Source: Nitrososphaerota archaeon
GTDB lineage: Archaea; Thermoproteota; Nitrososphaeria; Nitrososphaerales; Gagatemarchaeaceae
Reading direction: 5' to 3'
DNA length: 64,000 nt
Assembly: GCA_027887045.1 (NCBI GenBank)
Contig: JAPCJH010000002.1
Coordinates: 446,723-510,722 of the forward strand
This document shows positions 2-37,560 of the stretch, in pieces (within the stretch, counting starts at the first letter, position 1; every line of letters starts with the position of its first letter). Made by a program: the position numbers and the translations under genes. The notes beneath the pieces are model-generated. The model ran no database searches and was not told where the DNA came from. It was given only the letters and a program-made list of their open reading frames with translations.

Positions 2-1558
2 TACGGTTCAAGGATTGCTGGGTTTGAAGGAGATGATCCTGTAGTTGAGATGGTCATTGTAGCTAAAAGCCCCAGTGATAAAATAGCGAATAAACATGAC
101 CAAAAGCCTGCCCAGTCAAAACCTCTCATTGTAAGCGAGACGGACTTAGTGAAGGATGCAAAGAAACCTTCGGCTGAAGAGTTCGCGATAAGCAAATTAC
201 TAAACATCTATGAGCCCTTGGTTAATGCGGACTTCTTGGAGAGCGCGGAGATAGAGTACAAGAAAAGGATCGTTTCCGAAAAGCTGATTGAAATCCAGGC
301 TGATTACGGCGACTTCACTTCAAACCTAATTATTCCCTACGAATACTTCCTTTTTGACAAGCTCCATAAGCGGGCGCTAGCCCATCCAGATGAAACTTAC
401 GCGTTTGTTCGCACCTACTCGAGTCCTCAGGGAAAAGGCAACTCGGAGTTCACTTTTCGGGGGTTTCGGGAAGCCGCAAAGTCGCTTGCTTCACAAGGGA
501 TAATTGAGAGCACCGATGACTCAGTTAGGATTCTCAGTGGGAAAAAGCGAAGGAAAGCGCTCTCCAAGCTTCTCAAAATGTATCCGTTGACGACTAGAGG
601 TGCCATCCAGTACGCATTTCATGGGTTAGCCAATAGAGCGGGATTCGAGTTCAAGACGAAACCTATCCCTAAGTTGACTTTGATAGAAAAGGTCGAATCA
701 ATCGTCGAACTCGACCGGCCGAATAAGCTGCTCCGACTTGAAGAAGGAGTCATCTTTGACGATGGGAGCAAGCTGGTCGAAGAGCTAGCGCGAATTTCAG
801 GTTTCGTCGAAAAATACGAGTTCGAGGAAAAGAAAAAAGGAGATTTCATCAACTCCAGCAGACAAATCGAAATCTGGGATGACAAAAGACGGGTGAAGTT
901 TGTCCTAAAACACTTCCCGGAGCTCAAATCTGTGAAGTGGGCCCTCCTAAACCTGTGGTCCCTCGCGTCCAAGAGGTTCAACATGAGTCCCCTCTCAAGA
1001 CTCAACCGGGAGGTAGCGGCCGTAAGTCGGCTTCGTCGACTCGGAATCAAGACTCATCGGATAACCGGAGTCGTCTTGGACGATAGAACTCTAGTCACTG
1101 AGTATGTCCAAGGAGTTCCGCTAGACAAATCTGTCGGGGAGATAACCAAGGGGAAAAGCAAGGATACGGGCGACGTCGAAAAGTATGGACAAGTATTAGG
1201 CAAGCTACACAAAGCTGGCATGGTGTACGGGGATACAAAACCGCAGAATGCCCTTGTAGGGAAGGACGGAATTGACCTGCTGGATCTCGAGCAAGCTGTG
1301 GAGAAGGGTGATCCCGGCTGGGACATAGCCGAATTCCTCTACTATTCCGCAAAGCTCTCGAAAGAGAAAGAAGGAATGAAGCTCGTTGCTGAGGCCTTTC
1401 TAAAGGGGTATCGAAATGAGAATACCGGCCAACCTGTCAGAAAGGCGAAACGTCTGAGATATCTAGGACCGTTCATCTTGTTCCTAACCCCAAAGAAGAT
1501 CCGAGTGATCAGAGCCGCACTCAAGAAGTATTCGTCGGCAGGCGGCTCGGGCCCTTGA
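2..1558 (+). CDS. Bud32/RIO-like protein kinase, 5' end outside window
   Basis: The C-terminal half has the kinase catalytic signature LHKAGMVYGDTKPQN at about residues 384-402 counted from the ATG at 50, followed by LLDLEQA, a DFG-like metal site with DLE as in Bud32/RIO/Kdo-type kinases. The middle region is charged and includes helix-turn-helix-like helices. The frame is open from base 2 with no stop, so the ATG at 50 may be internal. The residues before it read YGSRIAGFEGDDPVVEMVIV, which resembles the GS motif and following strand of minimal nucleotidyltransferases, with the usual catalytic Asp pair replaced by V and E. A degenerate nucleotidyltransferase-kinase fusion is therefore possible. 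The kinase assignment is firm; substrate unknown. Confidence 0.75.
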   Translation, partial: YGSRIAGFEGDDPVVEMVIVAKSPSDKIANKHDQKPAQSKPLIVSETDLVKDAKKPSAEEFAISKLLNIYEPLVNADFLESAEIEYKKRIVSEKLIEIQADYGDFTSNLIIPYEYFLFDKLHKRALAHPDETYAFVRTYSSPQGKGNSEFTFRGFREAAKSLASQGIIESTDDSVRILSGKKRRKALSKLLKMYPLTTRGAIQYAFHGLANRAGFEFKTKPIPKLTLIEKVESIVELDRPNKLLRLEEGVIFDDGSKLVEELARISGFVEKYEFEEKKKGDFINSSRQIEIWDDKRRVKFVLKHFPELKSVKWALLNLWSLASKRFNMSPLSRLNREVAAVSRLRRLGIKTHRITGVVLDDRTLVTEYVQGVPLDKSVGEITKGKSKDTGDVEKYGQVLGKLHKAGMVYGDTKPQNALVGKDGIDLLDLEQAVEKGDPGWDIAEFLYYSAKLSKEKEGMKLVAEAFLKGYRNENTGQPVRKAKRLRYLGPFILFLTPKKIRVIRAALKKYSSAGGSGP

Positions 1559-1590
1559 ATAAGTAGCGACCAGCTAATCAGCAGTATTAA

Positions 1591-2046
1591 TCAGATTATC
1601 GGCTTTGTCTCGGGAGCCTTCCTGGAAAGGAAGATGGAAATGGTCGCGAGAATCGCGCCGATCCAGTACAGGCCAAAGTATACCTGGCGAAATATTGGCG
1701 CGGAGGTTCCGGTAACATACAGAGCTTCGCCCATGGCGAACAGGAGTGAGAAAATCGCCATTCCTCCTCCTATCCCTATGAGAAACCTTCCAGCGGTTCC
1801 GTGCTTCCGCAGGAGCAAGATTCCTCCAATAACTACCGAGAACCCCCCAAGTCCGACCAGATAGGTAAGTGCTGCAATTGCAACCTGCACCAAGATCTGG
1901 CCCGCACCAATGCTCGATCCCAGATAGTTATCGACGTAGCCCACGGCAGTCAAAAGAAGAGAGGCCGAAGTGACTCCGCTCACAATCAAGATCAGACCAG
2001 CGACTATACCGAGAAAACCCGCGGTCCTGAACGATTTCTGGGCCAA
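1591..2046 (-). CDS. four-TM membrane protein, unknown function
   Basis: The 151-residue product has four hydrophobic segments (about residues 10-32, 48-80, 88-106 and 122-142) joined by short loops, and a basic C-terminus with RKAPETK. It looks like a compact integral membrane protein of the kind often called DUF-type four-helix in archaea. No catalytic motif is visible. It is convergent with the kinase gene and divergent from the PAP2 gene. Function not recognised. Confidence 0.65.
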   Translation of the reverse strand: MAQKSFRTAGFLGIVAGLILIVSGVTSASLLLTAVGYVDNYLGSSIGAGQILVQVAIAALTYLVGLGGFSVVIGGILLLRKHGTAGRFLIGIGGGMAIFSLLFAMGEALYVTGTSAPIFRQVYFGLYWIGAILATISIFLSRKAPETKPII

Positions 2047-2266
2047 TTCCTACGTCATGCCCCCAGCCATCCCGTCAGGGGCTGCAGGAAGGTCCTAGTC
2101 TTTTGGCTCAAGACCTGAATTCCTCATGGAGAGATTGGCGCTTATATACTTTCGCGCAAGTGAAAGCGCTCCGAAGACGGTAGTGCCTAAGGAGCGTGGT
2201 TTGCACTTGGAGCTAGCTTTTTTTTGCCTAGCCTTGACGAAGAGTAATAAGAGGCCCCCACCGAGT

Positions 2267-2887
2267 ATGTGGCAATTGCAGAGGAAGGCCGTCCTCAGAT
2301 ATTCCCTCATTGCCCTCTCAGTGCTGCTCGGCGTCGCAATCCGCTTCGCGAACTTCGATTCCTACGAAATCCAATATGTGCTGGCACTTCAGAAAGCGGC
2401 CTTGGCGGCCAACATAATGTGGTTCTTCCAGCTCTACTCGCACCTTGGAGATTCTATCGTCTGGATAGGTGTGGCTCTCCTATTGCTTGCTTACTATTAC
2501 GGGAGGCCAAGGAAGGCGCTTAAGTTTGCCCTGTTCATAACTGTGGTAGCGGTAGTTGTCATCGTGATGAGGCTAATATTCCCGCGAGAGAGACCCTTTC
2601 AACCCATTAACGGAGCCCCCTCACAAGTGCTAGCCTACGCCTATGAGGGACTCCCTTCCTATCCATCAGGGCATATCGCACCTACCGCGGGGGGTCTCTA
2701 CCTTCTCGCCAGTCACTCGAAAAAGCTGAACATGTTGTTCGGAGTGCTGGTAGTTCTATTGGGGATAAGTCGTGTAGCGACCGGAACTCATTTCTTCACC
2801 GACATAATTGGAGCCGCGCTCTTCTCCTATCCCATAGCAGCCATCATCGATGACATGAAACTGTTCGAACGGTTCAAGGACCGTTAG
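2267..2887 (+). CDS. PAP2-family membrane phosphatase
   Basis: This is an integral membrane phosphatase of the type 2 phosphatidic acid phosphatase superfamily. All three signature parts are present: RLIFPRERP (the KxxxxxxRP element), YPSGH, and SRVATGTHFFTD (SRxxxxxHxxxD). The histidines of the last two are the family's catalytic residues. Five to six hydrophobic helices surround them. Substrates in the family are lipid phosphates or isoprenyl pyrophosphates such as the glycan carrier. The frame opens at 2126, but a TATA-like box (cttatata, 2141-2148) lies inside that extension, so the start is downstream. I chose the ATG at 2267; GTG at 2183 is an alternative. Confidence 0.87.
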   Translation: MWQLQRKAVLRYSLIALSVLLGVAIRFANFDSYEIQYVLALQKAALAANIMWFFQLYSHLGDSIVWIGVALLLLAYYYGRPRKALKFALFITVVAVVVIVMRLIFPRERPFQPINGAPSQVLAYAYEGLPSYPSGHIAPTAGGLYLLASHSKKLNMLFGVLVVLLGISRVATGTHFFTDIIGAALFSYPIAAIIDDMKLFERFKDR

Positions 2888-3109
2888 TCAAGGATTATGG
2901 GCATTTTCCGAATCAGTAAAGGCGAACGTTCACTCTTACTAAATCCAGAGGCCGTTTCATTCGCGTTGATGAAGCCATTCTTTTTGGGTTAGAGATCAGT
3001 ATCGACCTCAATTCTCAAGTTGGCTTCCGGACAGTCTATGCCATATTGATTCTTGGGGAACACACGGATTTTCAGAGTCGTTTTGAGGCCCTTGGCAAGA
3101 AACGATTTC

Positions 3110-3931
3110 CTACTTAATGACGATCGACTTAAGGTCCTTGGCCACCGGTGGGTAATGCATATCCATTTTTTCGAGTGTTCTTACAATTATGGTTGAAATG
3201 GTTACATCTCGAAACCAGTTGTTATTCGCAGGTATTAGAAACCAGGGAGCCCAACTCGTACTGGTCTTTTCCAGCGCCTCCTCATACGCCTTCATGTACT
3301 CTGGCCAGAGCTCCCGTTCGGGGAGATCATGGATGCTGAATTTCCACCTTTTTGTGGGATCATCAAGCCTATCTAGCAAGCGCTTTTTCTGTTCGTCCTT
3401 GTCAATGTGCAGATAAAACTTCACGATGGTCGTACCTTCTTCGCACAAAATTCGTTCAAAACGGTTGATTTCTTGGTATCGACTTTTCCAAACTTCCTCT
3501 GGTACTAACTTGTGGACCCGCTCGACCAGTACGCCCTCGTAATGGCTACGATTGAATATGACCATTTCACCCTTGCCAGGCATTTGTTTGTGCACCCGCC
3601 ACAAGAAATCATGGTCGAGTTCGTCGGGAGTGGGGACGCCGAAACGCGCGACACGCACAGTCTGGGGGTTGACTCCCTCAAAGACCCGTCTAATGGTCCC
3701 GTCTTTACCGCCAGTGTCCATCGCCTGTAGAACGATTAGCACCTTGTGTTTATGCTCGGCATAAAGCATTCCTTGAAGTTGCTCAAGCTTCTTGGTAAGC
3801 TTCTTTGAAACCTCGGTTGCGTCTTGTTCATTTCCATCGAAACCAGAAGTATCGCCAGCGTTCCATTGATCAAGATGGACCTTTTGTCGTGGTCGGATTC
3901 TGTATCGTTTGATGTGAGAACGTCCTTTCAA
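3110..3931 (-). CDS. ppk2: polyphosphate kinase 2 family protein
   Basis: The 273-residue protein matches the PPK2 family (polyphosphate:nucleotide phosphotransferase). It has the Walker A-like AMDTGGKDG at about residues 70-78, the FEGVNPQ stretch, the Walker B region MVIFNRSHYEGVLVERVH at about 123-140, and the lid-type arginines of DRLDDPTKRWKFS. The family moves phosphate between polyphosphate and nucleoside mono- or diphosphates in the cytoplasm. Length fits the single-domain, roughly 270-residue subgroup. It stands alone on the minus strand. Direction of the reaction and nucleotide preference cannot be read from the sequence. Confidence 0.92.
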   Translation of the reverse strand: MKGRSHIKRYRIRPRQKVHLDQWNAGDTSGFDGNEQDATEVSKKLTKKLEQLQGMLYAEHKHKVLIVLQAMDTGGKDGTIRRVFEGVNPQTVRVARFGVPTPDELDHDFLWRVHKQMPGKGEMVIFNRSHYEGVLVERVHKLVPEEVWKSRYQEINRFERILCEEGTTIVKFYLHIDKDEQKKRLLDRLDDPTKRWKFSIHDLPERELWPEYMKAYEEALEKTSTSWAPWFLIPANNNWFRDVTISTIIVRTLEKMDMHYPPVAKDLKSIVIK

Positions 3932-4183
3932 TGCTGAGGCTTGCCTTCGAACAAGGTTTTAGCCGTTTCGGGGGGACTTGGACTCAAGCATGAAGGGATT
4001 AGCGCTTAATGATTCTCGGCGCGCCTTTTCTTCTCGGTTGCAATCATCTCCAGAGTGAAAGGTCTGGAAGATGTGAGAAAGATAGGTCAAGTGTCTCAGA
4101 ACGAATGCGCAGGATGGGCAGTATCCCTAGATGGGCAGACTTAATACCGACGGCGAATCAAAACTTACGAGGAGAACGTATGA

Positions 4184-4474
4184 ATGGGACCTAGAATTCT
4201 CGGAGTTGGGTTTGGCATATTTGGAATCGGCGTCTTGGACCTAGGCTTTGCGGGTTCTGCCATTACTGACTTGTTCCATTTAGGGAACGTAATTCCTACA
4301 ATACCTGCCCCTACAATCCCTGGGACCAACCTCTTCGCCACACTCGTCCCGGGGGGAAACATCATCCTCTTCATCATTGGAGGCGCATTTCTCGGCGTTG
4401 GCATGATAATCTTGATTGTACGCAATCATAGAGTGGCAAAAAAGTCGTCCACTGTTGCAGTGCCCTCCAAGTAG
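4184..4474 (+). CDS. small two-TM membrane protein
   Basis: The 96-residue product has two hydrophobic segments (about 6-30 and 57-80) separated by a proline-rich loop with IPTIPAPTIPGTN, and a basic tail RNHRVAKKSS. A GGAG motif at 4171-4174 sits about 10 bases before the ATG, so the start is well supported. No family is recognised. The topology predicts an outside loop and a cytoplasmic basic tail. It is unlinked to neighbours. Confidence 0.55.
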   Translation: MGPRILGVGFGIFGIGVLDLGFAGSAITDLFHLGNVIPTIPAPTIPGTNLFATLVPGGNIILFIIGGAFLGVGMIILIVRNHRVAKKSSTVAVPSK

Positions 4475-4585
4475 ACATCGGCCTTCTGCTCTCCTTCACC
4501 GGAATATCTTTGTGCGACCTGTTCAGTTTCTTGTGAGTCAGATAGCATACCCCTGATATGCGCTGAGGACTCGGTTATCAGGGCA

Positions 4586-7135
4586 TCAGAATTTTGCTCG
4601 TTTGTAGAAGATCCTCTTTGCCACTTCTCCCGAGATGATGTAGAGCATTACGATTGCCGCCATCGCCACAATAAACAGAATTGGAGGTGGGCCAAATCCG
4701 AACAAATCACCTATCAAAGTAAAGGGGAGGACAATGGTGGCGGCAAGGACCGCTATTGTTGCGATCACCAGATGCGTTCCTGGCACACTCTTGAAGAAGG
4801 GACGCCTGCTCCGGATGACAAGTACGATCAGAGTTGCTGAGACGACCGATTCCACAAACCAACCGGTTCTAAAGAGAACCGTCGACGAATTCAGGACGAG
4901 GAGCAGAACCCCAAAAGTGAGGTAGTCAAACACCGAACTTAGGATCCCGAATGTTATCATGAAATTGCGAATGAAGCTGACGTTCCATCGTCGAGGCTGC
5001 TCAACCATCTCGCTATCCACGTTATCTGTGCCGATCGTTATCTCGGGGAAATCTGTCATCAGGTTGGTAAGCAATATCTGCCTCGGCAGGAGCGGGAGGA
5101 ACGGCAGGAAGAGGGAAGCACCTGCCATGCTGAACATGTTTCCAAAATTAGAACTCGTCGCCATGAAAACGTACTTGAGGGTGTTGGCAAAGGTCTTCCT
5201 TCCTTCTTTGACCCCCTGGACGAGCACGCCCAAATCCCTTTCACGCAGCACGATAGAGGCCGATTCTTTCGCGACATCCACGGCGCTCTCGACGGAGATC
5301 CCTACGTCGGCGGCATGGAGAGCCGATGCGTCGTTGATCCCATCTCCCATGTATCCGACGACATTTCCAGCTTTCTTGAAGGCGAGGATGATGCGTTCCT
5401 TCTGGTTTGGCTCGACTTCCGCGAACACGTCGGTTTGATTCACTTTGCCGAGCAACGCTTCGTCGCTCATCTTGAGGAGCTCTGGGCCTGCAATAATTCT
5501 TGGAGTTGGGAAACCGACTTGTTGACTTACAACGCCCGCGACGAGTCGGTTGTCACCAGTTATGATCTTCAGTGAGATTCCGAGCACTTTCAGGTCGTTA
5601 ATAGTCTCAGCAATTTTGGGTTTGATTGGATCATAGAGGACAATGAATCCCAAGAAGGTCATGCCGACCTCGCTGTCTTTGGTGATGAGCTTGTCGGTTC
5701 CAATGTCTTTGTACGCTATTCCCAGAACTCGAAAACCCTTGCTACTGAAGTCTTCGAACTGTTGTTGAATCTGCTTTTGAACCTCGGCGATTTCTGCGGT
5801 TGTCCCCTCTGAAGTTTCAACCGACGAGCAGACGTCAAGCACATTCTGGAGAGCGCCTTTCGTCACCATCAGGTTCTTCTCATCCTTGGACACCAGGACG
5901 CTCAATCGCTTTCGAAGAAAATCGTACGGGACCTCGTCCAGTTTCTTGTAGGCAGATGCATCAAAGTGATGTGCTTGAATCGCGGCGTCACTCCGGATCG
6001 CCTCATCGATCGGGTTCGTGAATCCCGACTGGAAAAAAGCGTTGAGAAAGGCGTATAGAAGCACTTTTTCGCTCTCCTTCCCCTGGACATCAAGAACGGA
6101 TTGTATCTTGATCGAGCCCTCCGTGAGAGTGCCAGTCTTGTCGGAGCAGAACACGTTCATGCTTCCGAAGTTCTCGATGGATGCTAGGCGTTTGACGATA
6201 ACCTTCTGCAGTGCCATCTTCTTTGCTCCCTGAGCGAGGTTTATGCTGATGATCGCCGGCAACAACTGGGGTGTAAGCCCGACGGCCAGGGCCAGAGAAA
6301 AGAGCAGAGAGTCCAACACCGGACGCGCAAAATACACGTTTATGGCGAAGGTGGCAACTACAAGCAGCATCGTAACTTCCATGAGAAGATATCCGAATCG
6401 CCGGACTCCGTGCTCAAACTCGGTTTCAGGCGGCCTGAGTTTCAACCGTTCGGAGACCTTGCCGAATTCCGTTCTTGCTCCGGTTCCAACTACCACTGCC
6501 TGTGCGCTCCCGCTGACCACGTTGGTTCCCATGAAGAGACTGTTGGTTCGCTGACTGAGTGCCGTTTCAGGGGGTAGAACCCCGGCCGTTTTCTCTGCTG
6601 GATAGGTTTCTCCAGTTAAGGACGCCTCATTGACGAAGAGGTCTTTGGATTCTATGACCAAAGAATCTCCGGGAATTAGGTCTCCCGCATTGAGGACGAC
6701 AATGTCTCCGGGCACAATCCCCTCGACTGGGATGTCTTTCTGGGTTCCATCGCGGATTACGGTTGCCTTTGTCTGCACGATCGCTAGTAATTTTTCGACG
6801 GCCTTGTTCGCGCCTCGCTCTTGAGAGAAACCGAGCAGGCTACTCACCAGGATAATCACCAGAATGATGAGCGCGTTCACAGGATCTCCTAGGAAGAATG
6901 ACAACCCTCCCGCAAAGATCAGGATGAGTATGACCGGGCTCTTGAATTGTGCAAGTAGGAGCGTGGGGGCGTCTGACCTCTTCTTGGGCTTCAGAAGATT
7001 TGTGCCGTATTGTTTGAGTCGTTTTCCCGCCTCATCGTCGGTTAGGCCTCTTGATGTCGTTTGCAGTCGCTGAAGAGTGTCAGAAGCAGGTACGCTCCAG
7101 AAGGATGGTTGGCTAGGGTCGTCTGGCTTACTCAA
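4586..7135 (-). CDS. mgtA: P-type ATPase, magnesium-transporting (MgtA type)
   Basis: The 849-residue protein is a complete P-type ATPase. It has the actuator LTGE (about 173-176), the phosphorylated Asp in CSDKTGTLT at residue 332, and the hinge GDGINDASAL near residue 620. The membrane motif GLTPQLLP in helix M4 resembles the GLTPEMLP of MgtA/MgtB (type IIIB) Mg2+ importers rather than the PEGLP of calcium pumps, and the short N-terminus and about ten TM helices fit. It would take up Mg2+ at the cytoplasmic membrane. It lies 58 bases downstream of the phosphoesterase gene on the same strand, possibly co-transcribed. Confidence 0.88.
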   Translation of the reverse strand: MSKPDDPSQPSFWSVPASDTLQRLQTTSRGLTDDEAGKRLKQYGTNLLKPKKRSDAPTLLLAQFKSPVILILIFAGGLSFFLGDPVNALIILVIILVSSLLGFSQERGANKAVEKLLAIVQTKATVIRDGTQKDIPVEGIVPGDIVVLNAGDLIPGDSLVIESKDLFVNEASLTGETYPAEKTAGVLPPETALSQRTNSLFMGTNVVSGSAQAVVVGTGARTEFGKVSERLKLRPPETEFEHGVRRFGYLLMEVTMLLVVATFAINVYFARPVLDSLLFSLALAVGLTPQLLPAIISINLAQGAKKMALQKVIVKRLASIENFGSMNVFCSDKTGTLTEGSIKIQSVLDVQGKESEKVLLYAFLNAFFQSGFTNPIDEAIRSDAAIQAHHFDASAYKKLDEVPYDFLRKRLSVLVSKDEKNLMVTKGALQNVLDVCSSVETSEGTTAEIAEVQKQIQQQFEDFSSKGFRVLGIAYKDIGTDKLITKDSEVGMTFLGFIVLYDPIKPKIAETINDLKVLGISLKIITGDNRLVAGVVSQQVGFPTPRIIAGPELLKMSDEALLGKVNQTDVFAEVEPNQKERIILAFKKAGNVVGYMGDGINDASALHAADVGISVESAVDVAKESASIVLRERDLGVLVQGVKEGRKTFANTLKYVFMATSSNFGNMFSMAGASLFLPFLPLLPRQILLTNLMTDFPEITIGTDNVDSEMVEQPRRWNVSFIRNFMITFGILSSVFDYLTFGVLLLVLNSSTVLFRTGWFVESVVSATLIVLVIRSRRPFFKSVPGTHLVIATIAVLAATIVLPFTLIGDLFGFGPPPILFIVAMAAIVMLYIISGEVAKRIFYKRAKF

Positions 7136-7193: not shown

Positions 7194-8705
7194 CTATCCG
7201 TTCGCCTTGTGAGCAGCCGCCTCTCGTCTGATCCGCTGCATGTATTTCGTTGCATGGACTGTCCTGTGTCTAAGGAACCTCCGGGCGATCTCCTCCTTTT
7301 CGGTGACAGGCGAGTTTTGGATGTCTCTTAGGAGAGCGACATGGTGGAACCCTCGCAGGGATGGGTCAACCGGTTTGGGCCTCAAGAGGGAAATGAGTCC
7401 TGACATCAATTCACTGAGACGAGCTGCGACTGAGTTGCCTGTCCTTTCCTTGTGAACGTATCCAGAGACGGCTGAATCAGGGAGTGTCATTGGCGCGTCC
7501 GTTCTAGGAGTCTGCAGCTTGAATAGATGATTGAGGGTCTGAGCCGTCTCGTCCCGTTTCGTCAGGCTACCAAGGTTGAACAGCTTTTCAACCGTGGCGA
7601 GAACTGACGTGTGGTCATAGGTATTGTGATCGATGGTACCCTTTGCTACGAGCGGGGAGATGATTAGTGTTGGGACCCGGACGCCGAGCTGTCGAAAGTC
7701 GAAATTGTTGTGATTGTTTCCAGGACTGGAGACTGAGTCTCCCGGGGGAATAGCTGTGGGGGGCACGACATGATCATAAAATCCCCCATGCTCGTCGTAC
7801 GTTATGATGAGCAGGCTTTCTTCCCAGTGTGGGGAACTGCGTATGGACTCGTAGATGTCCTTCAGTAGTCTCTCGCCGCTTGTTACGTCGTCGTTCGGAT
7901 GTTGAGATGTGCCACCTCTGAATTTCCCCGTGAAGGCATGGTAGTCCGGTTCCATGAACACGTAAGATTTCGAGAACTTTGGATCACTTACATCGTGCCT
8001 AAACTGATTGAATGGCCTAAAGTTCTTTTCGAGACGAGCGCGCATTCCGGCGATGGAAAGCGCTTGAGGAAATTCGTCACCGGAATAGATCATCCAATCG
8101 CGTTTGGCATTGTCGAATTGGTCATAGATTGAGCCGTTGTCGAACTTGAAGCCATCATACAATATGGACTTGAACTCGCGGGAGAAGGAGGGGCTGTCAT
8201 CCAAGCCGCCCGAGGATGCGGCGTGAATAAAGAAACGGTTGGGCCACGTCGGACCTGGTAAGGATGAGAACCAGTGATCGCATACAGCGAACTCGGTGGC
8301 CAAAGTCGTCAGGACTGGCAACTGGGTGGGCGAGTAGCATTTCATGATCGATTCGGGATTCTTGCGGTTGTAGCGGCTGAAATTTGAAACATAACCGCTG
8401 TTGTTTATGTTAGGATCGATCTGGCCAGGGGAGGGAGCGGGTGAGGAATAGGTGCCTCCCTTTCCACATATCTGCTCCTTCACATCACTGAATTCGTGGC
8501 CCGGACCATAGTCCATTAGGAAATCGGCTGGAGACGATACTGCGATGGCATCACCGCTTGGGGAGGCGTTGCTTTCTCTGCCAGTTAGCCCTTCTAGCTT
8601 GGTCGGTCTTCCGGATGGATCTGTTCCCTGAATTTGAGAAAAGCCAAGAAGATGGTCAAAGCTCCTGTTCTCCAACATTACGACGAAAATGTGTTCTATC
8701 AACAC
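7194..8705 (-). CDS. phospholipase C / acid phosphatase-type phosphoesterase
   Basis: The 503-residue protein belongs to the bacterial phospholipase C/AcpA phosphoesterase family within the alkaline phosphatase superfamily. The N-terminus carries IEHIFVVMLENRSFDHLLG, where E and N bind metal; later come TWPNRFF, LLIITYDEHGGFYDHV (metal-binding Asp and His) and YDHTSVLATVEKLF. It begins directly with the catalytic domain and lacks an obvious signal peptide, so it may be cytoplasmic or exported by an unusual route. The start is GTG with GAGGT just upstream. A small open frame (8699-8812) overlaps the start by 7 bases. Substrate, phospholipid or phosphomonoester, is uncertain. Confidence 0.85.
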   Translation of the reverse strand: MLIEHIFVVMLENRSFDHLLGFSQIQGTDPSGRPTKLEGLTGRESNASPSGDAIAVSSPADFLMDYGPGHEFSDVKEQICGKGGTYSSPAPSPGQIDPNINNSGYVSNFSRYNRKNPESIMKCYSPTQLPVLTTLATEFAVCDHWFSSLPGPTWPNRFFIHAASSGGLDDSPSFSREFKSILYDGFKFDNGSIYDQFDNAKRDWMIYSGDEFPQALSIAGMRARLEKNFRPFNQFRHDVSDPKFSKSYVFMEPDYHAFTGKFRGGTSQHPNDDVTSGERLLKDIYESIRSSPHWEESLLIITYDEHGGFYDHVVPPTAIPPGDSVSSPGNNHNNFDFRQLGVRVPTLIISPLVAKGTIDHNTYDHTSVLATVEKLFNLGSLTKRDETAQTLNHLFKLQTPRTDAPMTLPDSAVSGYVHKERTGNSVAARLSELMSGLISLLRPKPVDPSLRGFHHVALLRDIQNSPVTEKEEIARRFLRHRTVHATKYMQRIRREAAAHKANG

Positions 8706-19601: not shown

Positions 19602-20642
19602 ATGACCGAAAAACTATCCATTAATCATAACTCACCTAATCGAGGCCGATCTCAAAGCATCAGGGGATGCTCATCGATGATTGTTCTTGCGGTCCTCTTT
19701 GTCGCGCTTCTGTCACCTACCCTAGCCCAAGCTTCAACGCAGAGCACCTCTGGTCGTGAACAGTTCTTGAGGGATTATGTGAAAGCTCACCCGACGTTTT
19801 CGGGATGTCTGAGTGGGAGCGCCGCAGCAAAGACCGTGACCGTAGTCGACTGCCAATTCGATTACGCTGTTGCGGGCGGCTTGCAACCCGGATCTCAAGA
19901 CTCGGCTCCAAGAACCGAAAGAATGCGCCCTTACAATGGCTTCGGACCCTTTACATACAACTGTTCTAGCAGATGCTGGGTAGGCGGCGAATTTTACTAC
20001 TACGGTCCTTACTCAGAAGTTACTGCTTTCACAAAAATCCCCGTAGCACCCTCAAGTACTCCAACGTCTTTTAGCATGTGGGAGGGTCTTACAAATTGTA
20101 CAGCGACAATTTGTCCGCCATCTGGAAGCAATTCGTTGCTAGTACAATCGGGTTGGGTATACGGAACCGCTCTAAATGGAAGTCATCCCGACATGTTCGT
20201 TGAGCTCTATGGGAGCTTCTCCTGGAATGGCCACACCTGTACGAGCTACTTCTGTGGATATAGGGTGCAGGAATCAGCGGGAAATTCACTTTGGGGCTAC
20301 GATGATGCGTCTAATAATAATTGGGTCGCATACGTCGAGGATGATAGTGTAACCGGGATTCCTTACATCGCGGTCATCGATAGCTTCACTGCTACAGGAA
20401 TCTCAAATACTCTCCCGTACGCCATTGTGAGCATGGAAGCTGCAGGGGCTCCGAGCGCTTCCTATATCACTACCCCCATAAGCTTCACATCCGTGACAGT
20501 CTGGAATCCAAACGCCGTTCCTGCACAGGTGAATATCGACACAAACGACATGCTGGCATACGATGGACCTACCGGCAGTTCGGGAGTTACAGCGACTTAT
20601 TCCGCGACCGGCTTGTCAACAGGCACAGTGAAAGTCAGCTGA
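19602..20642 (+). CDS. secreted protein, possibly eqolisin (G1 peptidase)-like
   Basis: The 346-residue protein has an N-terminal signal peptide (hydrophobic IVLAVLFVALLSPTLAQA near residues 27-44). The mature part is Cys-poor, aromatic and Ser/Thr-rich, with predicted beta sandwich character. Two stretches, LLVQSGWVYG in the middle and YAIVSMEAAGAPSASYITTPISF near the C-terminus, resemble the Gln and Glu active-site regions of the glutamic peptidases (eqolisins), and their spacing of about 100 residues fits. This is pattern recognition, not a profile match. A TATA box (cttatattcc, about 19569-19578) lies 25 bases before the ATG. Two CxxxxxC-like pairs may form disulfides. Confidence 0.55.
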   Translation: MTEKLSINHNSPNRGRSQSIRGCSSMIVLAVLFVALLSPTLAQASTQSTSGREQFLRDYVKAHPTFSGCLSGSAAAKTVTVVDCQFDYAVAGGLQPGSQDSAPRTERMRPYNGFGPFTYNCSSRCWVGGEFYYYGPYSEVTAFTKIPVAPSSTPTSFSMWEGLTNCTATICPPSGSNSLLVQSGWVYGTALNGSHPDMFVELYGSFSWNGHTCTSYFCGYRVQESAGNSLWGYDDASNNNWVAYVEDDSVTGIPYIAVIDSFTATGISNTLPYAIVSMEAAGAPSASYITTPISFTSVTVWNPNAVPAQVNIDTNDMLAYDGPTGSSGVTATYSATGLSTGTVKVS

Positions 20643-22465: not shown

Positions 22466-24550
22466 GTGCCATTCTGCCCGAAGTGCGGCCAGCCCTACGA
22501 ACTGGTTCCTGGGGCTACGCAGGGTTTCTGCGAGTTCTGCGGTAACGCCTTGAGGTTAGCCGCGCCGACAAAGAGTGCTGAAGCGCTTTCGTCCCCAACG
22601 AGTCAGACTCCAGCACCGACTGCCCGGGCGAAGAACCCGAGGAGCAGCAAGACGAGGAAAAGAGTATTGGCCGTGGCTGCGGTCGTGATCTTCCTGTTCG
22701 CGGCGCTCGTTTCGTATGGAGCTTATCTCAATCTTTCCAGCTTGGGTGGTCAATCTACAACACAACCTTTGACCACACGGGGTTCAACGACGGTCACTAA
22801 TCCGTCGACCACGACTCAGCCGTCAACGACTACAAGCGGTCAGAAATCGACAACCACAATTCATTCCTCCCCGTCATCAGTCTCGACTTCCATCAATCAC
22901 TCTTCGGCCGCATCGACCACGAGTCAGCCGACGAGTCTCAGCATCGCGGACAGCACCCTCGCAGAAGGCGTGGACTCAAACTACCAGCCTGTCAACAGGA
23001 CTCAGGTATTCGACACAAACGCCCGCTTCGCGTATTCTTGGATCAACCTCGCGAATGTGTACTCTCCCTCCCACAACGTCACCTGGGTGTGGCTGACAAG
23101 TTGGGGGCAAGTCTACTTCAGGTATCAAGCCACTATTCCCGACCCTGGGAACGGCAGGCACTACCCCAACTGGTACACATATTGTGACATCTACATCAAA
23201 GGATCAAACGCCATCTACCTCGCGGGGAGCTGGCAGGTAGGCGTCTACATCGACGGTGCGCTTGATCTTGTGCAGAACTTCACGCTTCAGTCCCCGTACG
23301 TCACCCCCCAGGGGATCCGAAGCGCCTACGACGTGGCCCCGCTGATTCAGTCCGGATACACCGGGAAGGGAGTGACCGTCGCAATAATCAACTCGGGGAT
23401 TGACAACACCTTCTACAGCGACATCAAAGGTTTCGACGCCGCCTACGGCCTTCCAAACGCCAACATCACGGTAGTAGAGCCCAACGGAAGCCAAGGAACC
23501 AACGTAGAGGAACCCCAGGGCGAGACTACTGCTGATGTCGAGTTCGTACACGCGATGGCTCCGGATGCCCACATACTCCTGGTCCTCGTGGGAGGACTAT
23601 CTGGCTTCTTCACGGGTTTCAGCTACGTGATTGACAACAATGCAGCGGACATCGCAACCGTGAGCCCGTCCTGGGCGTGGTGGGGCCAGGGTAACCAGGG
23701 CACCGTTTTGGCAGAGAACTCGGAGTTCGCGAAGGGCGCGGGACAGAATATCACTCTCATAGCGGCTTCCAACGATTGGGGGTCGAACAACACGGTTCCC
23801 TGGGGGTCAATAACCGGCGATTTCTGGACCGCTCACCTCCCATATTCGTGGCTAATGCCCCAGTACAGTCAATACTTCACCGCGGTTGGTGGAACAGCTC
23901 TCACCCTGATCGGGAGCCGGTACGGGAGTGAAGCGGGATGGAACCAGAGCGGCGGAGGGCCGAGCAACCTCTTCTCACGTCCATCTTGGCAAACCGGTCC
24001 TGGCGTACCGAACAATAACTTCAGGGTCATACCTGACCTATCGCTCGATGCCTCCTGCTCTACCGGGTACACATTCTTCTGGAATGGACATCTCGGCTAC
24101 TTTTGCGGAACCAGCGGAGGCGCGCCAACTTTCGCCGGGATTGTCGCTGACATAGTTCAGGCTGCCGGCAAGCGGGTGGGGCTCTTGAACCCGATGCTCT
24201 ACTCGCTCGCGTCCTCCGCCCCATCCACGTTCCACGACGTGACGGGCGGGTGCAGTCTGGTCAAGACGGGCTCTGTGATCGGGACGGGCTACTGCTCATC
24301 GGCTGGATGGGACTACGTGACCGGGCTGGGAAGCCCGGACGCGGTAAAGCTGCTTGGCGGGATAGCTCACGTGCAGCTGGCTCAGGTGACAAATATGCCG
24401 ACGGGGTCTGAGTTGAGATTGGGGGCGTTGGTGGCCATCTCAAGGGGTGTCCTGTATTTGCCCTACTTGATCGCTGTTGTCGTCTCAATCTTGTCATTAA
24501 CATTAAGCCAACGACGGCGTGAATGGCGCTCCGGCCCTGATCAGTCGTAG
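22466..24550 (+). CDS. membrane-anchored sedolisin (S53) with N-terminal zinc ribbon
   Basis: The 694-residue protein has four parts. A zinc ribbon (C4, C7, C22, C25) comes first, then a TM helix (about 66-88), a Thr/Ser-rich linker (95-160) and a beta-rich accessory domain (about 180-275). The peptidase domain has the sedolisin residues Glu353 and Asp357 (GETTAD), Asp437 in AASNDWGS, and Ser550 in GTSGGAP; FHDVTGG and GWDYVTGLGSPD form the calcium-site end. A final hydrophobic helix is near 660-682. Sedolisins are serine-carboxyl peptidases active at low pH, so an acidic exterior is suggested. The usual long kumamolisin propeptide is not evident. GTG start, TATA (gttaaatag, about 22428-22436). 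Confidence 0.9.
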   Translation: MPFCPKCGQPYELVPGATQGFCEFCGNALRLAAPTKSAEALSSPTSQTPAPTARAKNPRSSKTRKRVLAVAAVVIFLFAALVSYGAYLNLSSLGGQSTTQPLTTRGSTTVTNPSTTTQPSTTTSGQKSTTTIHSSPSSVSTSINHSSAASTTSQPTSLSIADSTLAEGVDSNYQPVNRTQVFDTNARFAYSWINLANVYSPSHNVTWVWLTSWGQVYFRYQATIPDPGNGRHYPNWYTYCDIYIKGSNAIYLAGSWQVGVYIDGALDLVQNFTLQSPYVTPQGIRSAYDVAPLIQSGYTGKGVTVAIINSGIDNTFYSDIKGFDAAYGLPNANITVVEPNGSQGTNVEEPQGETTADVEFVHAMAPDAHILLVLVGGLSGFFTGFSYVIDNNAADIATVSPSWAWWGQGNQGTVLAENSEFAKGAGQNITLIAASNDWGSNNTVPWGSITGDFWTAHLPYSWLMPQYSQYFTAVGGTALTLIGSRYGSEAGWNQSGGGPSNLFSRPSWQTGPGVPNNNFRVIPDLSLDASCSTGYTFFWNGHLGYFCGTSGGAPTFAGIVADIVQAAGKRVGLLNPMLYSLASSAPSTFHDVTGGCSLVKTGSVIGTGYCSSAGWDYVTGLGSPDAVKLLGGIAHVQLAQVTNMPTGSELRLGALVAISRGVLYLPYLIAVVVSILSLTLSQRRREWRSGPDQS

Positions 24551-25083: not shown

Positions 25084-28000
25084 TCAGGCCCCAGCCTTTT
25101 GCAGCGGCTCCGCACTACGCCGTCTCAGAAGTACTGCAACGACAACAACCACGGCAATCGCTGCTATGATTCCACCGATGGTCCGGTAGTTGTAAGAGAA
25201 GTTCGCCTCAATCGTCAATGGCGCATTCAAGGTGAGTGAGGTTTCACTGCTAGTTCCTGTGGCCCCATTGCTCCATCCAATGAATTCATAAAGTAACGAA
25301 GAGGGGTTCTCAGTCAGTGTGGCCATTGTTCCTGGAGGAGCGTAAACTGAGGAAGATGCACCGCCTCGAACAACTCCCGTCGGGCCCGTCGTTCCCGCGG
25401 TGTAGGAGACCGAGCCACCATTGTCCGCGACTATCGTCAGACCTGGAAAGAACACCGCTTTCTCCGCGATTGGGCCGGAGAACACGATGGAGGTAGAATT
25501 CTCCATATCTGACGACGATCCGTTTCCAGACCCGGTCCACCCTTCAAACCTCCAACCGGAATTCGCCGTCGCGGCAATCTTGAGGGTCGAGCCGGCTTCG
25601 ACCCAGCCGTTCTGACCGTTGACTGACCCTCCGGATGTCGGCGCAAGACTCAACGTCAGGTAGTATTGATGACGGTAACTCAACTGAATCGTTATCGACT
25701 GTGAAATGGTTCCGTTGATTGGCTGTACTGTGACCCACCGCTCCTGGAACGTGCTGCCTTCGAGGGAGGTTGCGAGACTCCACGACGCCCCTTCGTCCAG
25801 CCAGTAGGTGCTCAGGGTGGCGGCCAGAGTCTGCTGGAGGGGTCGTCCGAACTGCGAGCTGACCAGGTTCGGAGGAGACGGCAAGCCACCGCTCACTACA
25901 GAATATCCTGCGGAGAACTCAAACTGGTGGTAGAATGTGGGCGCGACCGCCCCAGAGGAACCCACGTCTCCGGTCGGCGAGTCTGTAATCCACCGCTCCG
26001 AAGACGAAGAGCCAATCAGCGGGTTGGCGTAAGAGTACGAGGACCCGGCATCTACCCAGGCGGAAGAGCTGGCAGCAGCCACGGCCGGCGAACCGAACTG
26101 CACTACGCCCACAGATGGGGATGTGTACCCCGTTCCACCTCCTGCCACGTTGTAGCCAAAAGAGACGAAGAACTGATGATAGTAAACTAGGACAACCGTC
26201 TGGGGCGACTGCGCAGTCCCGGAGGCTGCCAGGTTCGTCTCCCACCTTTCCGTCGAAGAAGACCCCGCGAGCGGGTGGTTAATGCTCCAACTGCTTCCTA
26301 TGTCGACAGTGAATAAGACAGGCTGGGTGCTCAACGTGGCAGTCTTCTGCACGCCACCGCTGATGTAGGTGAGTACCGGTGCAAGGTAACCACTTCCCCC
26401 GCCTTTGACCGAATAACTCGCCGTCAACGCCGTGACGGTCGGTGGTGTCGGCGTGACTATCCACACACCCCGTCCGTGCGTTGCCGCGATCAGCAGGTTC
26501 GCTGAGGTGATCTCAAGGTCGAAGACTGCTATGTTAGGAAGTCCCGTCCCTGGAGAAGACCAAGTCGCTCCCGAGTCAGTTGAATAGTAAACTCCGTGGT
26601 CTGTTCCAACGTAGAGAGTATCTGACGCGTCTACTCGGACCACATTGATCCGATCGGGCGTGGCGGCCAGATTCGTCTCCTGCCAAGTCCCAGATTGCAG
26701 TGCGAACTCATGGAGGGTATTCTGAAAAGCAGCCGACACATAGACCAAATTCGCGTTGGCGTGGTCAACGGCAAGCCCGCTTATTGCGTATCCAGATGTG
26801 GTACCGACGAGCTGCCACGTCGAGCCGCCGTTCGTTGAGACCTTTACGTTGCCTGATTCGTCGCCTTGATAGACAGTGTTACTGCTGGACGGGGCAACAA
26901 CTAGAGCCGTGATTAGGGAACTCCCTAGAGAGCCGCTGACGTCGCTCCATGACGCCGCAAAGTCGGCCGTCTTGTGGACGTGTGTTCCACCCATGTAGAG
27001 GGTTCCAGGAGTGTGGGGGTCCTGAGCCACTGGTGCGAAGAACGCGCTGTTGTCACTCTGGTTCAAACCAGAAATTGCGTTCTGCCAAGTCTTGCCCCCA
27101 TCTGTCGATTTCTGAAAAGTGAGATGGGTGAAATTGCAGTACATTATGTTTGGATTGGACTGCTCGAATCCTGTCCACCCACCGTCCCCGCCCTGTACTA
27201 GGGACCACGATGGGGTTCCTGCATATTGTACGCACCCGTTGTCTTGAGTTCCTCCGAAAAGCAGACTGCTCGGCTCTCCTGTAATCGATTCGAATTGCGT
27301 CAACCCGAGACCGGAGTTAAGGTTGACCCATGTGGTGCCTCGATTCGTAGACTTCCAGATACCACCATCATTCCCGCTGAAGATAGTATCTGAGGTCGTG
27401 GGGAGGAAAGCGAGCGCGTGTTGGTCTGGGTGAATCCCTCCGGACGCGAATCCCCCGAGGTCGGTCCAAGTGGTGCCGCCGTCTGTCGAAATGAAGAGGT
27501 CAACGCCACCGAAGTACAGCACGTTAGGGGTGGAGGGATCCGCGGCCATCAGCAGGTCGTAGTCGCACTGCTTGTTGCAGGGGTCGACCGTGTTGGGCGG
27601 GATGGGCGGGTTATTCAGCGGAACAACCTGGTTCGTCGAAAGATCATCCCTGTAAATCCCGTATAAGTTTCCGTGGTTATTGCTGAAGGCGGCAAACAGC
27701 GAACCAGGACGTGTCGGTGTGGTGGCTAAGGCCACCCTGCAGCCAGTCCCCGTCAGACAATTAATGGAGGTCAGGTGTAGGAATACGCTCCAGCTGGATC
27801 CGCTATTGGTCGACCTCCAGACGGTCCCGTTGAACCCTGATGCGTAGATTATGTTGGAGTTTGTCGAGTTGACCACGAGGTCGGCGAAGCTCACCCTGGT
27901 ATAATGCGAAGCCAAGGTGGGGGTCCACGTGCTCCCCTCGTCAGTGGAGAGATATATGCCGTAAGCCGATTGATTGGAATCTCTGTAGAAACCTCTGCAG

Positions 28001-28740
28001 CAATCGCCCCACGTTGTGGAGACTAGTATTCGGCTGGGATTCCCGGGGCCGACCAAGACTTTCGCGATGGAACTACCTTTGAAGATGCTTGCCCCGAGAA
28101 CCGTCCACGTCCTGCCTCCGTCGGAAGACTTCAGAAGCCCCGCTCCTGAGTAGGTATCGCCACTATGGTTGGGTTCCCCCGTCCCCACATAGAGGGTCTT
28201 CCCGTCAGGCGATATTGAGATTGAGCCAATCGCCAGGCTGGGCTGGCTATCCGTCAGTGGGGTCCACGTGCTACCGCCATCTGTCGACTTCCAGACACCA
28301 CCCTGGGCCCCTCCCACGTAGATGGTCTGCGGGTTGCTACTGTTAATTGCAATCGCCGTGATTCGACCTGAGAAGGGGGCGGTTCCATAGTAGTTGGGCG
28401 TCGCAGACGGCTTGACTATCGGTTTCGGGCCAAGTTCTGCCCAGGCCGTGGTCCCTGCAGACGTCGCCGTTGCTGCCGGTGGCTGGCCAGAACTCGAAGC
28501 TGACTGTAAGGGAAGGGCTCTTGCCGCCGGTGACGGCTGGATAGTCGGCAAGAAGTTGGGCGTGCCGAAATCAGTCGAAGCTGAACTCGCCTGCTGGACG
28601 ACCGAGTAGTGGTCAAGAGATTGCACGGCGCCAGGCTGGACTGAGTTTGCCCGCGCCGAAGAGGATAGCATGGCGGGCACAGTCGGGATAAGAACTGCAA
28701 GCAAGAAGACCTGCGCGACCAGCTTGGTCGAGGCGGTCAA
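25084..28740 (-). CDS. giant surface protein: Asp-box beta-propeller plus repeat modules
   Basis: The 1218-residue protein (TTG start) has a signal peptide (LVAQVFLLAVLIPTVPAML) and a C-terminal anchor (IAAIAVVVVVAVLL, then RRRS). Residues about 95-770 form BNR/Asp-box or sortilin-like propeller repeats, seen as VWKSTDGGSTW, LLKSSDGGRTW, LYLSTDEGSTW-like, LFISTDGGTTW and VKVSTNGGSTW. Residues about 780-1060 hold three modules of one type, each with GYxVxxGG and ending in SSTERW, SSSERW or TFQERW then YxHQ. InlB-type FEGWTGSG and FIGWSNG repeats follow. Propellers of this type bind glycans or act on polysaccharides; no catalytic residue can be assigned. Confidence 0.8.
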   Translation of the reverse strand: MTASTKLVAQVFLLAVLIPTVPAMLSSSARANSVQPGAVQSLDHYSVVQQASSASTDFGTPNFLPTIQPSPAARALPLQSASSSGQPPAATATSAGTTAWAELGPKPIVKPSATPNYYGTAPFSGRITAIAINSSNPQTIYVGGAQGGVWKSTDGGSTWTPLTDSQPSLAIGSISISPDGKTLYVGTGEPNHSGDTYSGAGLLKSSDGGRTWTVLGASIFKGSSIAKVLVGPGNPSRILVSTTWGDCCRGFYRDSNQSAYGIYLSTDEGSTWTPTLASHYTRVSFADLVVNSTNSNIIYASGFNGTVWRSTNSGSSWSVFLHLTSINCLTGTGCRVALATTPTRPGSLFAAFSNNHGNLYGIYRDDLSTNQVVPLNNPPIPPNTVDPCNKQCDYDLLMAADPSTPNVLYFGGVDLFISTDGGTTWTDLGGFASGGIHPDQHALAFLPTTSDTIFSGNDGGIWKSTNRGTTWVNLNSGLGLTQFESITGEPSSLLFGGTQDNGCVQYAGTPSWSLVQGGDGGWTGFEQSNPNIMYCNFTHLTFQKSTDGGKTWQNAISGLNQSDNSAFFAPVAQDPHTPGTLYMGGTHVHKTADFAASWSDVSGSLGSSLITALVVAPSSSNTVYQGDESGNVKVSTNGGSTWQLVGTTSGYAISGLAVDHANANLVYVSAAFQNTLHEFALQSGTWQETNLAATPDRINVVRVDASDTLYVGTDHGVYYSTDSGATWSSPGTGLPNIAVFDLEITSANLLIAATHGRGVWIVTPTPPTVTALTASYSVKGGGSGYLAPVLTYISGGVQKTATLSTQPVLFTVDIGSSWSINHPLAGSSSTERWETNLAASGTAQSPQTVVLVYYHQFFVSFGYNVAGGGTGYTSPSVGVVQFGSPAVAAASSSAWVDAGSSYSYANPLIGSSSSERWITDSPTGDVGSSGAVAPTFYHQFEFSAGYSVVSGGLPSPPNLVSSQFGRPLQQTLAATLSTYWLDEGASWSLATSLEGSTFQERWVTVQPINGTISQSITIQLSYRHQYYLTLSLAPTSGGSVNGQNGWVEAGSTLKIAATANSGWRFEGWTGSGNGSSSDMENSTSIVFSGPIAEKAVFFPGLTIVADNGGSVSYTAGTTGPTGVVRGGASSSVYAPPGTMATLTENPSSLLYEFIGWSNGATGTSSETSLTLNAPLTIEANFSYNYRTIGGIIAAIAVVVVVAVLLRRRSAEPLQKAGA

Positions 28741-36312: not shown

Positions 36313-37560
36313 GTGAACACAAAGGAAAGAGGAGCGGCCGCGGTTCCGGTGATTCTGATAATAGCCGTGATACTTGTGGGCGCGGTGGCGCTTTACGCCA
36401 ATTATCAACTGACCCAGAGCAATTCTACAAGCAACTCCCGAGAAACTAGTCTGCAAAGGCTCGTGAACGAGCTTCAGGCGGAGAATGCTCAGCTCAGAAA
36501 CCAACCGGGATCGGGGCCAGGCTCTTTGGGGAACACCAGCGGCACGCTCTTAGGATTGGACCCGATCGCTATTTACAAAGCGGATAATTCGAGCGTGGTA
36601 ACAATAGACGGGTTTCAGGTCACCACGGTCAACACTCTTTTCGGCAGCCAGCAGAGAGTTCAGGAGATAATCGGTTCGGGGTTTGTGGTTAATTATCTGA
36701 ACTCCTTCTACATCGTGACCAATTTCCACGTCGTCAACGGTGTGACGAACATTACAGCCACGTTCTGGAACGGCGATGCGTATCCAGCAAAGGTTGTCGG
36801 GTCGGACCCCTACAGTGACCTTGGTATCGTCTCGGTCGAGGCCCCGTCAAGCGAGCTGACCCCGCTGAAGCTGTCGCTGTCTTCTCGATTGACCGTCGGA
36901 CAGCCGGTTGCTGCGATCGGGAACCCATTCGGCCTTTCGGGGTCGATGACCTATGGGATTGTAAGCCAGCTGGGGAGGACCCTCCAGGAGACTACCGCAG
37001 GGAGCTTCCTCATCGCGGATGTCGTACAGTTCAGCGCCCCCATCAACCCTGGGAATTCCGGTGGTCCCCTCCTTGACAGCGCGGGAAACGTCGTCGGCAT
37101 CACCACCGCCGTCGTCGCTCAGTCGCAGGGTGTAGGATTCGCGATACCCTCGGACACGATTATCCGGGAGCTCGCTTCCCTGATCAGCACGGGGAGCTAC
37201 GGGTTGCACCCGTACCTCGGCATAGGGACCGTCGACATGAATTACCAGTTGTCCAAGATTCAAGGGACCAGTGTGACCTATGGCGTTCTCGTCGAAACGG
37301 TAGCTTCCGGTGGCCCCGCCGCAAAAGCCGGGATATTGAGCGGGGTCAGGAACGCGACAATCGCGGGGACTCAGTACTCGATTGGGGGAGACATAATAGT
37401 CTCAATCAACGGTACGAAGATCATCAACACGGACGCGCTCTCTTCGTATCTTGAAGAGCGTGCGGCAGCGGGGCAGACAGCCCATGTTGGAATCATCAGG
37501 AACGGCCAGAACCGCGCGATTGACGTCGTCCTCGGCACGAGACCGCCATTGAACGTCTAG
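36313..37560 (+). CDS. HtrA/DegP-type serine protease with PDZ domain
   Basis: The 415-residue protein begins with a TM anchor (VPVILIIAVILVGAVALYA) and a coiled-coil stalk. It then has a trypsin-fold protease with His139 in TNFHVV, Asp169 in SDLGIV and Ser249 in GNSGGP. A PDZ domain (about 305-405) ends with NTDALSSYLEERAAAGQ. It is an extracytoplasmic quality-control protease of the HtrA type. GTG start after gaggaaac. It shares no operon with neighbours and its stop lies next to the convergent Dph6-like gene. Confidence 0.93.
   Translation: MNTKERGAAAVPVILIIAVILVGAVALYANYQLTQSNSTSNSRETSLQRLVNELQAENAQLRNQPGSGPGSLGNTSGTLLGLDPIAIYKADNSSVVTIDGFQVTTVNTLFGSQQRVQEIIGSGFVVNYLNSFYIVTNFHVVNGVTNITATFWNGDAYPAKVVGSDPYSDLGIVSVEAPSSELTPLKLSLSSRLTVGQPVAAIGNPFGLSGSMTYGIVSQLGRTLQETTAGSFLIADVVQFSAPINPGNSGGPLLDSAGNVVGITTAVVAQSQGVGFAIPSDTIIRELASLISTGSYGLHPYLGIGTVDMNYQLSKIQGTSVTYGVLVETVASGGPAAKAGILSGVRNATIAGTQYSIGGDIIVSINGTKIINTDALSSYLEERAAAGQTAHVGIIRNGQNRAIDVVLGTRPPLNV

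Follow-up and report, generated by a model that had tools for sequence, protein, structure and literature searches.

A predicted membrane-tethered sedolisin without a recognisable prosegment, and the repeated absence of the prosegment among archaeal relatives

The 64,000-nucleotide stretch of Nitrososphaerota DNA analysed here (the window) carries a gene that raises the question of how a sedolisin could fold and be controlled when the domain that usually precedes it is missing. Activity at acid pH and resistance to pepstatin count among the marks of the S53 family. The pro-form is reportedly given as a family feature in the 2022 review by Oda, Dunn and Wlodawer. The sedolisin prosegment has been described as an independent domain that serves as folding aid, targeting signal and inhibitor, and core-only forms were noted in a fungal secretome (PMC6278154).

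Architecture of the gene and its catalytic domain

The open reading frame starts with GTG and runs uninterrupted for 694 aa; the stop-to-stop frame adds only 10 codons upstream. By visual inspection alone, a TTAAATAG box was noted some 30 nt upstream. The following features were assigned:

22466-24550 (+): gene for a membrane-tethered (by prediction) S53 (sedolisin) peptidase, 694 aa (open reading frame; S53 match to kumamolisin-As; GC3)
22466-22552 (+): zinc-ribbon-like module CxxC-x14-CxxC, residues 1-29, predicted cytoplasmic (sequence; sub-threshold Pfam; similar starts elsewhere)
22664-22720 (+): predicted transmembrane helix TM1/signal anchor, residues 67-85, with RSSKTRKR just before it (hydropathy 2.58; positive-inside rule)
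22751-22930 (+): Ser/Thr-rich stalk, residues 96-155, 58% S+T (composition)
22931-23308 (+): Ig-like beta-sandwich accessory domain, residues 156-281 (AlphaFold2; Foldseek; homologues on surface proteins)
23309-24364 (+): S53 catalytic domain, residues 282-633 (phmmer; AlphaFold2 ectodomain model; Foldseek)
23522-23536 (+): catalytic Glu353 and Asp357 (GETTAD; aligned to the kumamolisin GE..LD motif)
23774-23776 (+): oxyanion Asp437 (SNDWG)
24113-24115 (+): nucleophile Ser550 (GTSGG)
24236-24313 (+): putative Ca2+ site, Asp591 and Asp616 (alignment to kumamolisin)
24428-24484 (+): predicted transmembrane helix TM2, residues 655-673, followed by RRREWR (hydropathy 2.05)

The protein thus reads from a zinc-ribbon-like start through a K/R-rich stretch, TM1, the stalk, the beta domain and the S53 domain to TM2 and a terminal RRREWR. 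An initial annotation, made from the sequence alone, had proposed the same anatomy (zinc ribbon, TM, linker, beta domain, S53, final TM), which sequence, phmmer and structure models bear out.

A phmmer search against the PDB matched residues 282-633 to kumamolisin-As (E = 1.3e-32). The AlphaFold2 model of residues 152-640 (pLDDT 90.6, pTM 0.86) retrieved kumamolisin-As and sedolisin as top PDB matches in Foldseek (E down to 1.8e-26, about 3 Å over about 375 alignment columns), so that the subtilisin-like fold of solved sedolisins was recovered by both routes. The Ser-Glu-Asp triad and the oxyanion Asp are present: E353, D357, D437 and S550, the full Glu/Asp/Asp/Ser set read in the initial annotation, are all intact, and each is conserved in 52/52 aligned S53 domains. 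A catalytically dead pseudo-enzyme was rejected on account of these four residues. HDVT and GWDYVTGLGSP line up with HDIT and GWDPCTGLGSP of kumamolisin, placing D591 and D616 at a putative Ca2+ site near the C-terminus; the two columns hold Asp in 29/52 and 27/52 relatives, respectively. At the equivalent of kumamolisin E32, where 45 of the 52 sequences have Asp or Glu, the window protein has N309 and its closest relative (see below) has Ser; judging from the alignment, N309 could alter activity. An apparent loss of the W129 equivalent was dropped, as phmmer and MAFFT align this stretch differently.

The window protein therefore shares with kumamolisin and kumamolisin-As (MEROPS S53) the catalytic fold, the triad, the oxyanion Asp and the Ca2+-site aspartates. 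Unlike kumamolisin, it has no Pro-kuma_activ domain, contains two predicted TM helices, carries a zinc ribbon, a stalk and an Ig-like domain in front of the enzyme, and has N309 in place of E32. It is a novel variant within the known sedolisin family. At E<=1, Pfam made no S53 call in this protein, with neither PF00082 nor PF09286 matching; Pfam-based surveys can overlook such enzymes. No relatives were found in phage records.

Membrane topology and the zinc ribbon

K/R-rich stretches stand before TM1 and after TM2, and all ten N-glycosylation sequons (10/10) fall between the two helices, which fits a zinc ribbon inside the cell and a catalytic domain outside. We infer this topology from sequence; the intracellular zinc ribbon of the initial annotation is thus predicted to be cytoplasmic from charge and sequon distribution. 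The two predicted helices also agree with its proposal that the enzyme is tethered to the membrane, unlike a soluble zymogen, whereas a soluble secreted form is usual, if not universal, for S53 peptidases. The stalk is probably glycosylated. The ectodomain is low in charge (3.1% K+R and 6.8% D+E), compared with 12-16% K+R in cytosolic-type proteins and about 24-30% K+R+D+E in cytosolic-type neighbours. PMC10640624 describes the S53 peptidases of the Gagatemarchaeaceae, a thaumarchaeal family from soil, as extracellular enzymes with activity at low pH. Like the window protein they are thaumarchaeal S53 peptidases, and signal peptides are predicted for them; the S53 passages of that paper mention neither architecture nor propeptides. 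Together with the low-pH activity reported there, the low ectodomain charge would fit an acid exterior.

The zinc-ribbon-like start (CPKC-x14-CEFC, residues 4-25) has two CxxC knuckles and matches Pfam zinc ribbons below threshold (best E 0.006-0.03). It could sense or bind a partner in the cytoplasm and thereby control the protease outside, or signal upon cleavage of the stalk, in which case the protein would be a tethered protease with a housekeeping or regulatory task. The combination of a zinc ribbon, a TM helix and an outside Ig-like domain does recur in three proteins (L106, L109 and L112), in opposite order. However, N-terminal zinc ribbons followed by a TM helix occur on several other, unrelated membrane proteins of the same archaeal family and genome, and no signalling domain is fused. 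We consider a regulatory role improbable, and the zinc ribbon is best read as a generic, lineage-typical cytoplasmic cap or partner-binding module.

In some Ig-type archaeal proteins the zinc ribbon is C-terminal, after the TM helix: L106 (1402-2790), L109 (367-1695) and L112 (637-1965) have an outside Ig-like domain, CARDB-like repeats, a TM helix and a C-terminal zinc ribbon, similar kinds of part to those of the window protein but in reverse order.

The complete architecture was found once, in one incomplete MAG, and the N-terminus of the closest relative differs, as might be expected if the frame were a chimera created in MAG assembly, or a fusion that arose recently and does not function. 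Against this, the frame is single and open on a 580-kb contig, the topology is plausible, and the catalytic residues are all intact. GC3 along the gene ranges from 0.62 to 0.75, with a minimum of 0.53 in the low-complexity stalk and no abrupt break (window genes 0.65 ± 0.06). A chimeric or dead fusion is therefore very unlikely.

The Ig-like domain and the missing prosegment

The initial annotation saw the beta domain as a replacement for the propeptide. As a non-homologous propeptide, the domain would act as chaperone and/or inhibitor and be removed autocatalytically near residues 275-283; having come from archaeal surface proteins, it would be a new foldase or inhibitor that is cut off on activation, so that a zymogen would have arisen by convergence, with other sedolisins of archaea folding prosegment-free. 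Its position directly N-terminal of the catalytic domain, in the place of the prosegment, speaks for this idea, as does the ectodomain model, whose overall pTM is high.

Modelled alone, residues 156-281 form an all-beta, Ig-like sandwich with one 4-residue helix (pLDDT 93.9), and the region that the initial annotation had singled out for structure prediction (residues 160-290) is accordingly all-beta. Foldseek matches included UNC119 and the Wzt carbohydrate-binding domain, both Ig-like sandwiches (TM 0.4-0.63); this similarity is at the level of the fold and tells little about the ligand. The domain had no Pfam and no PDB sequence match. A pro-kumamolisin activation domain is marked by a PF09286 match and a mixed alpha/beta fold, and neither was found in residues 156-281; alignment of residues 160-290 with that domain, which the initial annotation had named as refuting its view, did not occur. 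A prosegment hidden in residues 156-281 is excluded by a dedicated prosegment HMM (-1.1 bits on the N-terminus, no match), by Pfam and by the all-beta fold. Superposition of the ectodomain model on intact pro-kumamolisin (1t1e) covered 459 columns only at 18 Å, with TMq unchanged from that for mature kumamolisin; as mature kumamolisin fits at about 3 Å, the beta domain must be positioned differently from the prosegment.

The relatives of the domain also argue against its being a propeptide. It resembles a surface domain of archaea with an Ig-like fold (alignment A3), for which no Pfam entry turned up, with 34-41% identity to copies N-terminal of metzincin-like proteases with an HExGHxLGLxH-type (HExxHxxGLxH) motif (L019, with two copies, L020 and L022). 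More distant homologues occur on large surface proteins (L051, L113, L115), on proteins with a signal, Ig-like domain, coiled coil and TM helix (L104, L105, L107, L108, L114), and on the Ig-CARDB-TM-zinc ribbon proteins L106, L109 and L112. Elsewhere the partners of the domain are thus an HExxHxxGLxH metalloprotease, coiled coils, adhesin-like regions or CARDB-like repeats, and S53 is not among them. It was detected in 6/400 order-level, 5/400 class-level and 15/398 phylum-level genomes (the samples overlap); in these searches of other archaea, which the initial annotation had suggested for the same architecture, the domain stood together with S53 only in the window protein.

Three of the large Ig-bearing proteins, L051 (1-2463), L113 (1-2367) and L054 (1-3048), have in common a C-terminal block (CLIATAxxGSEL...VQFLRxFRD...FxxVFNAWYYSFSP) with several TM helices behind it, possibly an archaeal surface-anchoring or sorting domain.

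The closest relative of the enzyme, which we refer to as the sister (L004/L046), bears on this question. Its gene lies in the groundwater Thaumarchaeota MAG NC_groundwater_1048 (JACQFN010000008.1). The catalytic domains of the two proteins share 54% identity, and the tree groups the sister with the window protein at an SH-aLRT of 100. In the sister, only a few residues separate the signal sequence from the catalytic domain, and the ATG of its gene overlaps the stop codon of an upstream 1626-aa RHS-repeat gene (ATGA), leaving no space for a prosegment. Both enzymes lack a prosegment and have a C-terminal TM helix; unlike the window protein, the sister starts with a signal peptide and lacks the zinc ribbon, the stalk and the Ig-like domain, and its gene overlaps the RHS-repeat gene. 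With neither propeptide nor beta domain in the sister, the absence of the propeptide is independent of the beta domain. As 28 other S53 proteins, counting the sister, have no recognisable propeptide, and as the domain also sits on non-protease surface proteins, we do not uphold the replacement of the propeptide by the beta domain, and we regard an Ig-like propeptide as unlikely. We infer instead that the domain is a borrowed surface module, a spacer or binding domain.

In the sister locus, the RHS/YD-repeat gene (16-4896, 1626 aa) is followed by the sedolisin gene (4893-6302); the protease occupies the usual place of an RHS immunity gene.

Prosegment absence among archaeal S53 peptidases

Neither the window protein nor any frame of the window nor the protein's own genome (56% complete) gave a match to Pro-kuma_activ (PF09286), and the statement in the initial annotation that no kumamolisin propeptide is evident held for Pfam, the HMM and the six-frame scan of the window. 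Membership by the S53 catalytic domain stands, while the N-terminal prosegment of a zymogen is absent.

Archaeal genomes yielded a set of 69 S53 domains of full length, which we searched with the prosegment HMM, seeded with two Pfam-verified relatives. Forty of the 69 matched at E<=5e-23 and the remaining 29 gave nothing; Pfam Pro-kuma_activ was likewise called in 40/40 S53 proteins with a long N-terminus (pro-type) and in 0/29 others. About two fifths (29/69) are thus without a prosegment: the window protein, the sister and 27 other relatives. A six-frame scan of the no-prosegment loci and the whole window recovered the positive controls and no split or frameshifted prosegment. A prosegment in another frame or a neighbouring gene was likewise absent from the window, the other no-prosegment loci and the window protein's own genome (56% complete).

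In an unrooted S53 tree the label with or without prosegment changes five times, at least three of them by well-supported branches, and a single clade of propeptide-less S53 proteins was rejected (AU test, P = 0.0003). The sedolisin prosegment is repeatedly absent in archaea. This distribution suggests that it was lost repeatedly, if it is ancestral as its spread suggests; with the tree unrooted, the direction of gain or loss is unproven. We found no description of prosegment-less archaeal sedolisins in the open-access literature, which is no proof of novelty.

If 29 of 69 archaeal S53 proteins in more than one lineage lack the prosegment, the catalytic domain is able to fold and to be controlled without it, and homologue pairs with and without a prosegment make the folding requirement directly testable. 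Short non-homologous N-terminal stretches of other no-prosegment proteins could act as propeptides, and a prosegment might conceivably act in trans from elsewhere in the window protein's genome (sequence 56% complete). Regarding the expectation that folding and activation must differ from other sedolisins, activation does depart from the kumamolisin scheme because the propeptide is missing, not because of the beta domain.

We propose as the likely reading a prosegment-independent acid (sedolisin) endopeptidase that is tethered at the cell surface by a glycosylated stalk; the Ig-like domain would serve as spacer or binding module and the zinc ribbon as cytoplasmic cap. Domain order, catalytic residues and the missing prosegment (also in the sister and 27 others) are taken from sequence and models; the topology, the glycosylation of the stalk, an acid optimum, folding without a prosegment and a role for the Ig-like domain are what we propose in addition. 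TM1 would serve as signal anchor and keep the zinc ribbon inside the cell, while the Ser/Thr-rich, probably glycosylated stalk and the Ig-like sandwich would hold the Ser-Glu-Asp catalytic domain outside. The C-terminal TM helix would provide a second anchor, giving a double-anchored surface endopeptidase. The catalytic domain would fold into its active form unaided by the kumamolisin foldase/inhibitor, and tethering, Ca2+ and the pH outside, not propeptide removal, would probably keep its activity in check. The likely task of the enzyme would be to break down proteins close to the cell, whether extracellular or on a surface.

Several further genes were observed. Near the sedolisin gene, 19602-20642 (+) encodes a secreted 346-aa protein in which SFSMWEGL...LLVQSG resembles an eqolisin core by eye, with no Pfam or PDB sequence match. 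Elsewhere (L058, G025 contig C24, 330-2620), a frame-broken S53 gene adjoins an eqolisin (Peptidase_A4, E = 5e-36); the two are unrelated acid-protease types. Convergent to the sedolisin gene lies 25084-28740 (-), encoding a 1218-aa exported protein with sortilin/BNR and InlB-type repeats. The window also encodes an HtrA-like exported serine protease (Trypsin_2 and PDZ) at 36313-37560 (+) and a phosphoesterase-family protein at 7194-8705.
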